Part shown: one piece after another, positions 37,093-37,186 of the stretch
How positions within the stretch are numbered: the first letter of the stretch is position 1
Layout: each line of letters starts with the position of its first letter
NCBI GenBank assembly: GCA_016932575.1
Contig: JAFGCO010000048.1
Location: forward strand, 66,889 to 130,888
Length of the DNA stretch: 64,000 nucleotides
Direction of reading: 5' to 3'
Source: a bacterium
GTDB lineage: Bacteria; Zhuqueibacterota; QNDG01; JAFGCO01
The notes under the pieces: generated by a model
Seen by the model: only the letters and a program-made list of their open reading frames with translations
The model's database searches: none
What the model was told of the DNA's origin: nothing
Made by a program: the position numbers and the translations under genes

Positions 37093-37164
37093 AATGTGAT
37101 GAATGATGTATTTGATCCGGAAATCGACCGGGAGAACAAACCAAAACGACCGTTACCCAGTGGC
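37093..37164 (+). pseudogene. ubiA fragment between the two cassettes
   Basis: These 72 nt match 57195-57266 inside the intact ubiA-type gene without gaps. The reading frame gives NDVFDPEIDRENKPKRPLPSG, with the NDxxDxxxD motif kept, against [21 protein letters not shown] in the intact gene. It is cut off 22 nt before the stop of the TPR gene of cassette B. The surrounding 97-codon open frame has no other likeness to a prenyltransferase, so this is a remnant. It is on the same strand and at the same position relative to its cassette as the intact gene. Confidence 0.85.
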
Positions 37165-37186
37165 ATTCGATTGCATGAAAGGAAGA

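Follow-up and report, generated by a model that had tools for sequence, protein, structure and literature searches.

A relic of a second ubiA gene between two cassettes

We observed that, in the 64,000-nucleotide stretch of DNA analysed here (the window), 72 nucleotides lying between two tandem copies of a five-gene cassette (37093-37164, plus strand) correspond to codons 56-79 of a second copy of ubiA, from the NDxxDxxxD motif to RPLPSG. These nucleotides are probably what is left of a gene, here called ubiA', that was duplicated together with the cassette, stayed under selection for a long time and was later destroyed. The relic is real and of an ordinary kind, in an unusually informative position: it gives a clean reading of a duplication joint and involves no new mechanism.

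As the first-pass annotation had claimed, the relic aligns without gaps and on the same strand with positions 57195-57266 of the intact ubiA gene; the match is in frame and 54/72 nucleotides are identical. The translation of the relic (NVMNDVFDPEIDRENKPKRPLPSG) agrees with that of ubiA in 18 of 24 residues, among which are NDVFD..ID and RPLPSG, so that the reported retention of both motifs was also borne out. The motif residues N, D, D and D are all present in frame, and no stop codon occurs. A blastn comparison of the A half of the window with the B half returned the match with E 4e-7, and the Pfam UbiA profile independently picked exactly 37093-37164 (E 1e-4) as the fifth and weakest UbiA match in the 4.4-Mb genome. 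With the relic itself and ubiA excluded, the best ungapped match to the 72 nucleotides within the window is 37/72, and none of the other three UbiA paralogues of the genome exceeds this value. The match is therefore far above chance, and the window's own ubiA is the closest sequence; both a chance match and descent from another UbiA paralogue of this genome, which the annotation had named as a possible objection, were rejected on these grounds. No further UbiA relic was detected in the genome. The interval originally proposed, 37093-37186, holds as far as 37164, since the last 22 nucleotides (37165-37186) have no demonstrable similarity to ubiA.

Judged from its sequence, the relic cannot work as a prenyltransferase, since it has only 24 of the 279 codons and lacks the second Asp-rich motif and most of the membrane helices. 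It is also very unlikely that some present function keeps it, either as a small open reading frame (37063-37269) or as a regulatory element for cassette A. The open frame, the retention of all motif residues and the location upstream of cassette A would be in keeping with such a role, but three of its residues (M, P and E, which include a change of I to M and of a hydrophobic residue to P) are absent from all 18 complete orthologues compared, the open reading frame runs antisense into the TPR gene, no terminator was found and promoter-like sites occur at chance frequency. An RNA element was rejected because no Rfam match was obtained.

The two cassettes and the intact ubiA cluster

Cassette A (17674-36798) and cassette B (37187-56672) are both on the minus strand, measure about 19 kb each and consist of five collinear genes in the same order and orientation: gene 1 (601 aa in A, with a probable real start at 36732, and 583 aa in B), a He_PIG gene (986 and 988 aa), a giant gene (3598 and 3801 aa), an FN3 gene (657 and 655 aa) and a TPR gene (435 and 433 aa). 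Protein identity between the two cassettes ranges from 50 to 72%. In a tree of 16 cassette copies, the gene 1 sequences of A and B are sisters with a support of 100/100, so that the two cassettes originated as copies within this lineage. Two copies, shared order, shared orientation and sister relationship are thus all found, as in a tandem segmental duplication. A ubiA sequence stands in the same relation to both cassettes, upstream and divergent, and is the relic at A and the intact gene at B. The latter (57030-57869, plus strand) encodes a DGGGP-synthase-like prenyltransferase of 279 aa and is the first gene of a conserved ubiA-dtd-maf cluster, in which dtd and maf (57871-58912, plus strand) are the partners that mark the native locus. 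G+C and GC3 are alike in both cassettes and fit the surroundings, for which reason a foreign composition of one of them was rejected.

Some features of the cassettes are recorded here in their own right. The predicted model of gene 1 consists of an N-terminal helix followed by about 26 long strands (pLDDT 63, moderate confidence) and may, with the same moderate confidence, resemble an outer-membrane beta-barrel. The giants (21154-31950 and 40481-51886), located between the He_PIG and FN3 genes, have almost no Pfam coverage. Gene 1 and the giant protein have no family name, and cassettes of this kind are met again in KSB1 and in Ignavibacteria/Bacteroidota. The gene immediately downstream of cassette A, serB (16336-17559), encodes a phosphoserine phosphatase with an N-terminal extension; at E 1e-20, no match to it was obtained in the remaining 11 class genomes. 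No literature was found on this cassette or on such a duplication joint.

Borders of the relic

On its left side the relic lacks ubiA codons 1-55, and on its right side it ends, as had been reported, 22 nucleotides before the stop codon of the cassette B TPR gene (37187). These 22 nucleotides (37165-37186), which form the right border of the relic and presumably the duplication joint, show no clear similarity to ubiA, dtd or serB. The spacer upstream of cassette A (36733-37092) is weakly collinear, depending on the gap penalty, with the spacer between cassette B and ubiA (56661-57003). The collinear alignment connects 37083 with 57003, so that what is missing amounts in essence to codons 1-55 of ubiA together with the few bases that precede them. 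Between the probable start of gene 1 and the relic lie 361 nucleotides, as against 370 between gene 1 and the start of ubiA. At one gap penalty the similarity of the spacers beats 500/500 shuffles and 564/566 other AT-matched windows, the two that it does not beat being the spacer region's own reverse complement; since it disappears under stiffer gap penalties, it is only suggestive. A decayed N-terminus of ubiA' was sought in the spacer by alignment and not found (score below the shuffle mean), and no other ubiA similarity was found within 36733-37260. A 13-nucleotide exact inverted repeat (36806-36818 and 37238-37250, GGTATATTACCAG and CTGGTAATATACC) spans the joint; one arm lies within the TPR gene of cassette B, and each arm is itself nearly palindromic.

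The first-pass annotation had described the second ubiA as reduced to its motif. The reduction of a second copy stands, and the account of how it shrank needs correction: on the left, codons 1-55 were deleted while the upstream spacer was apparently kept (361 as compared to 370 nucleotides), and on the right the relic abuts the end of the TPR gene, which is possibly the original breakpoint. In an improbable alternative, the duplication broke within ubiA and at the TPR end, so that ubiA' was incomplete from the outset and its decay has been neutral ever since. It gives the most parsimonious junction, with the relic ending within 22 nucleotides of the TPR stop, and agrees with the result that no dtd or serB remnant above noise is present in the joint; against it stands the extent of divergence described below.

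Divergence and selection

Synonymous divergence between the cassettes is near saturation (pS 0.63-0.70, dS 1.4-2.0), and only 41-45% of four-fold sites are identical between A and B. The relic and ubiA differ in 11 codons, five synonymously and six nonsynonymously, which gives a pS of 0.50, whose wide range (95% 0.2-0.83) is compatible with the values of the cassettes, a pN of 0.18 and a dN/dS of about 0.24. At codon positions 1 and 2, 8/48 nucleotides differ. Had the relic evolved neutrally from the duplication onward, at most 8 differences in the 48 positions would be expected with a P of about 7e-4 (branch 0.55) or 2.5e-5 (branch 0.7), and when the 18 changes were placed neutrally, six or fewer amino-acid changes resulted in 0.035% of runs. 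These tests presuppose that divergence times are equal and that gene conversion is absent, and they concern a sequence of 72 nucleotides, a recognisable remnant that comes from the best-conserved stretch of ubiA. Counting in the seven codons after PSG, whose homology is uncertain, raises P in the codon-position test to 0.11, and significance is gone. The pattern of a neutrally decaying pseudogene, with dN about equal to dS and changes spread evenly over codon positions, was thus not observed, although less clearly so with the seven-codon tail.

The cassettes are near saturation, yet the relic has a dN/dS of about 0.24, an open frame and all motif residues; had ubiA' been dead from the time of the duplication, stronger decay would be expected. 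This speaks against a ubiA' truncated from the beginning, as a cassette dS of 1.4-2.0 predicts a far more degraded relic and the P values of about 7e-4 to 2.5e-5 at positions 1 and 2, weaker with the uncertain tail, point the same way. The constraint on the relic implies either that the second ubiA was functional for most of the time, or that already diverged segments of cassette and ubiA were joined late, and 72 bases are too few to decide between the two. The proposal that the lost copy stayed functional for a while had been based on synonymous codons, an argument that is weak alone (5/11 codons); its conclusion is strengthened by the comparison with the near-saturated cassettes, with the reservation that late joining of diverged copies would produce the same pattern.

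Late joining is a less probable explanation than lasting function of ubiA', yet one to be taken seriously. It supposes that cassette and ubiA diverged in two lineages and that horizontal transfer, or recombination near ubiA, then placed one segment next to the other, the truncated ubiA being the scar; until the join, the relic would have been constrained as a piece of a gene that still functioned in the lineage it came from. In this way the constrained divergence is explained without long retention of two ubiA genes, which would be unusual, considering that no relative in the class keeps two DGGGPS-type genes. The placement of the relic leaves room for it: the best likelihood placement is with the window's own ubiA, with an lnL 2.4 above the next place, which is not significant, several other placements are not rejected by AU tests on these 72 nucleotides, and the relic is as far from its own ubiA (54/72) as from that of another genome of the class, G006 (55/72). 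Moreover, the distribution of the cassette is patchy, and in neither G007 nor G008 are the two copies sisters, which suggests movement between lineages or old paralogues. On the other hand, A and B are far closer to each other than either is to any other cassette compared, their matching G+C and GC3 fit the surroundings, and no donor is known, the GTDB family consisting of this genome alone. A particular form of such an event, in which ubiA served as a recombination foothold and a diverged relative's cassette and ubiA were captured beside the resident ones, leaving the relic as a scar, seems rather doubtful. If it were true, capture would be a way for such cassettes to build up next to a conserved housekeeping gene.

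Cassette and ubiA in related genomes

The source genome is the sole member of its GTDB family; the named relatives belong to candidate division KSB1 and the others are MAGs. When the contigs of the relatives were searched for the cassette, an alignment query gave 19 cassette loci and a single-sequence query none. A clear cassette is present in eight relatives, of which four belong to the class (G001, G006, G007 and G008) and four are from elsewhere in the phylum (G041, G044, G045 and G046), and remote copies occur in G030, G033, G036 and G064. In all eight clear and four remote cases ubiA is on a different contig from the cassette, except in G041, where the two are more than 1 Mb apart. The suggested search for genomes with a single cassette next to ubiA thus gave none, no trace of ubiA was detected beside any of the relatives' cassettes that were fetched, and the suggested search for two full copies of ubiA revealed no class relative with two DGGGPS-type genes. 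This ubiA is present in 10/12 genomes of the class, followed by dtd and maf wherever the contig allows, and the fetched neighbourhoods carry other genes upstream of it. Several of these assemblies are fragmented and might conceal an adjacency at a contig end.

Cassettes that never neighbour ubiA in relatives had been put forward as evidence against the duplication. This is literally what was found, and it leaves the duplication standing: the cassette would have come to neighbour ubiA within this lineage before this arrangement was copied. On comparative sequence evidence, it was most likely in this lineage that cassette and ubiA became neighbours; as the adjacency is seen only here, yet twice, it is best explained by copying and was probably not formed on two occasions. 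That the duplicated unit comprised cassette and ubiA, as first proposed, is therefore the most likely reading, given the sister cassettes, the best placement of the relic with its own ubiA, which is not decisive, and the adjacency found only here.

The order of the cassette genes is circularly permuted among genomes, being 1-2-3-4-5 in the window and in G041, 5-1-2-3-4 in G001, 5-1 in G045 and 3-4-5-1 in Ignavibacteria and Bacteroidota (loci L080, L094, L072/L073, L107 and L109-L112). Permutations of this kind would result if a cassette were duplicated in tandem and then lost some of its genes.

In the history that we favour, in which cassette and ubiA were duplicated together, the five-gene surface cassette would first have come, judging from synteny, to lie upstream of and divergent from ubiA-dtd-maf in a KSB1-related lineage. 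Tandem duplication of cassette and ubiA, suggested by the sister cassettes and the repeated adjacency, would then have given the order serB - cassette A - ubiA' - cassette B - ubiA. While the cassettes diverged to their present 50-72% amino-acid identity, ubiA' would have been under purifying selection for most of the time, as the coding signature of the relic suggests. Its destruction would have involved deletion of the first 55 codons and removal of all that followed codon 79, as far as the TPR gene end; the three residues absent from the orthologues would fit a short recent period without selection.

Comparison with known systems

Gene relics and pseudogene fragments occur at the junctions of segmental duplications. 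Like these, the relic is a truncated copy of an intact neighbour at the boundary of tandem copies; unlike the usual ones, it keeps a coding signature although the surrounding duplication is very old (dS 1.4-2.0). It exposes a history that would otherwise be invisible, in which a cassette of about 20 kb was seemingly duplicated with its neighbour ubiA.

With the UbiA superfamily (DGGGP-synthase-like; NF009523, NF009521, PF01040) the relic shares the first Asp-rich motif, NDxxDxxxD, and RPLPSG. It differs from genes of this superfamily in having 24/279 codons, no second motif, hardly any membrane helix and no start of its own.

For archaeal-type ether lipids in the FCB group, two prenyltransferases, DGGGPS and PcrB/GGGPS, have been reported (PMC7852524). 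In likeness to those gene sets, this genome has the DGGGPS-like ubiA (57030-57869) and a PcrB/GGGPS homologue (G000:C69:11368-12069), whose role in lipid synthesis is predicted from sequence. Unlike other FCB gene sets of this type, this lineage may have had two copies of ubiA for a time, and may long have kept two DGGGPS-like genes, members of an archaeal-type lipid pathway, before losing one of them.
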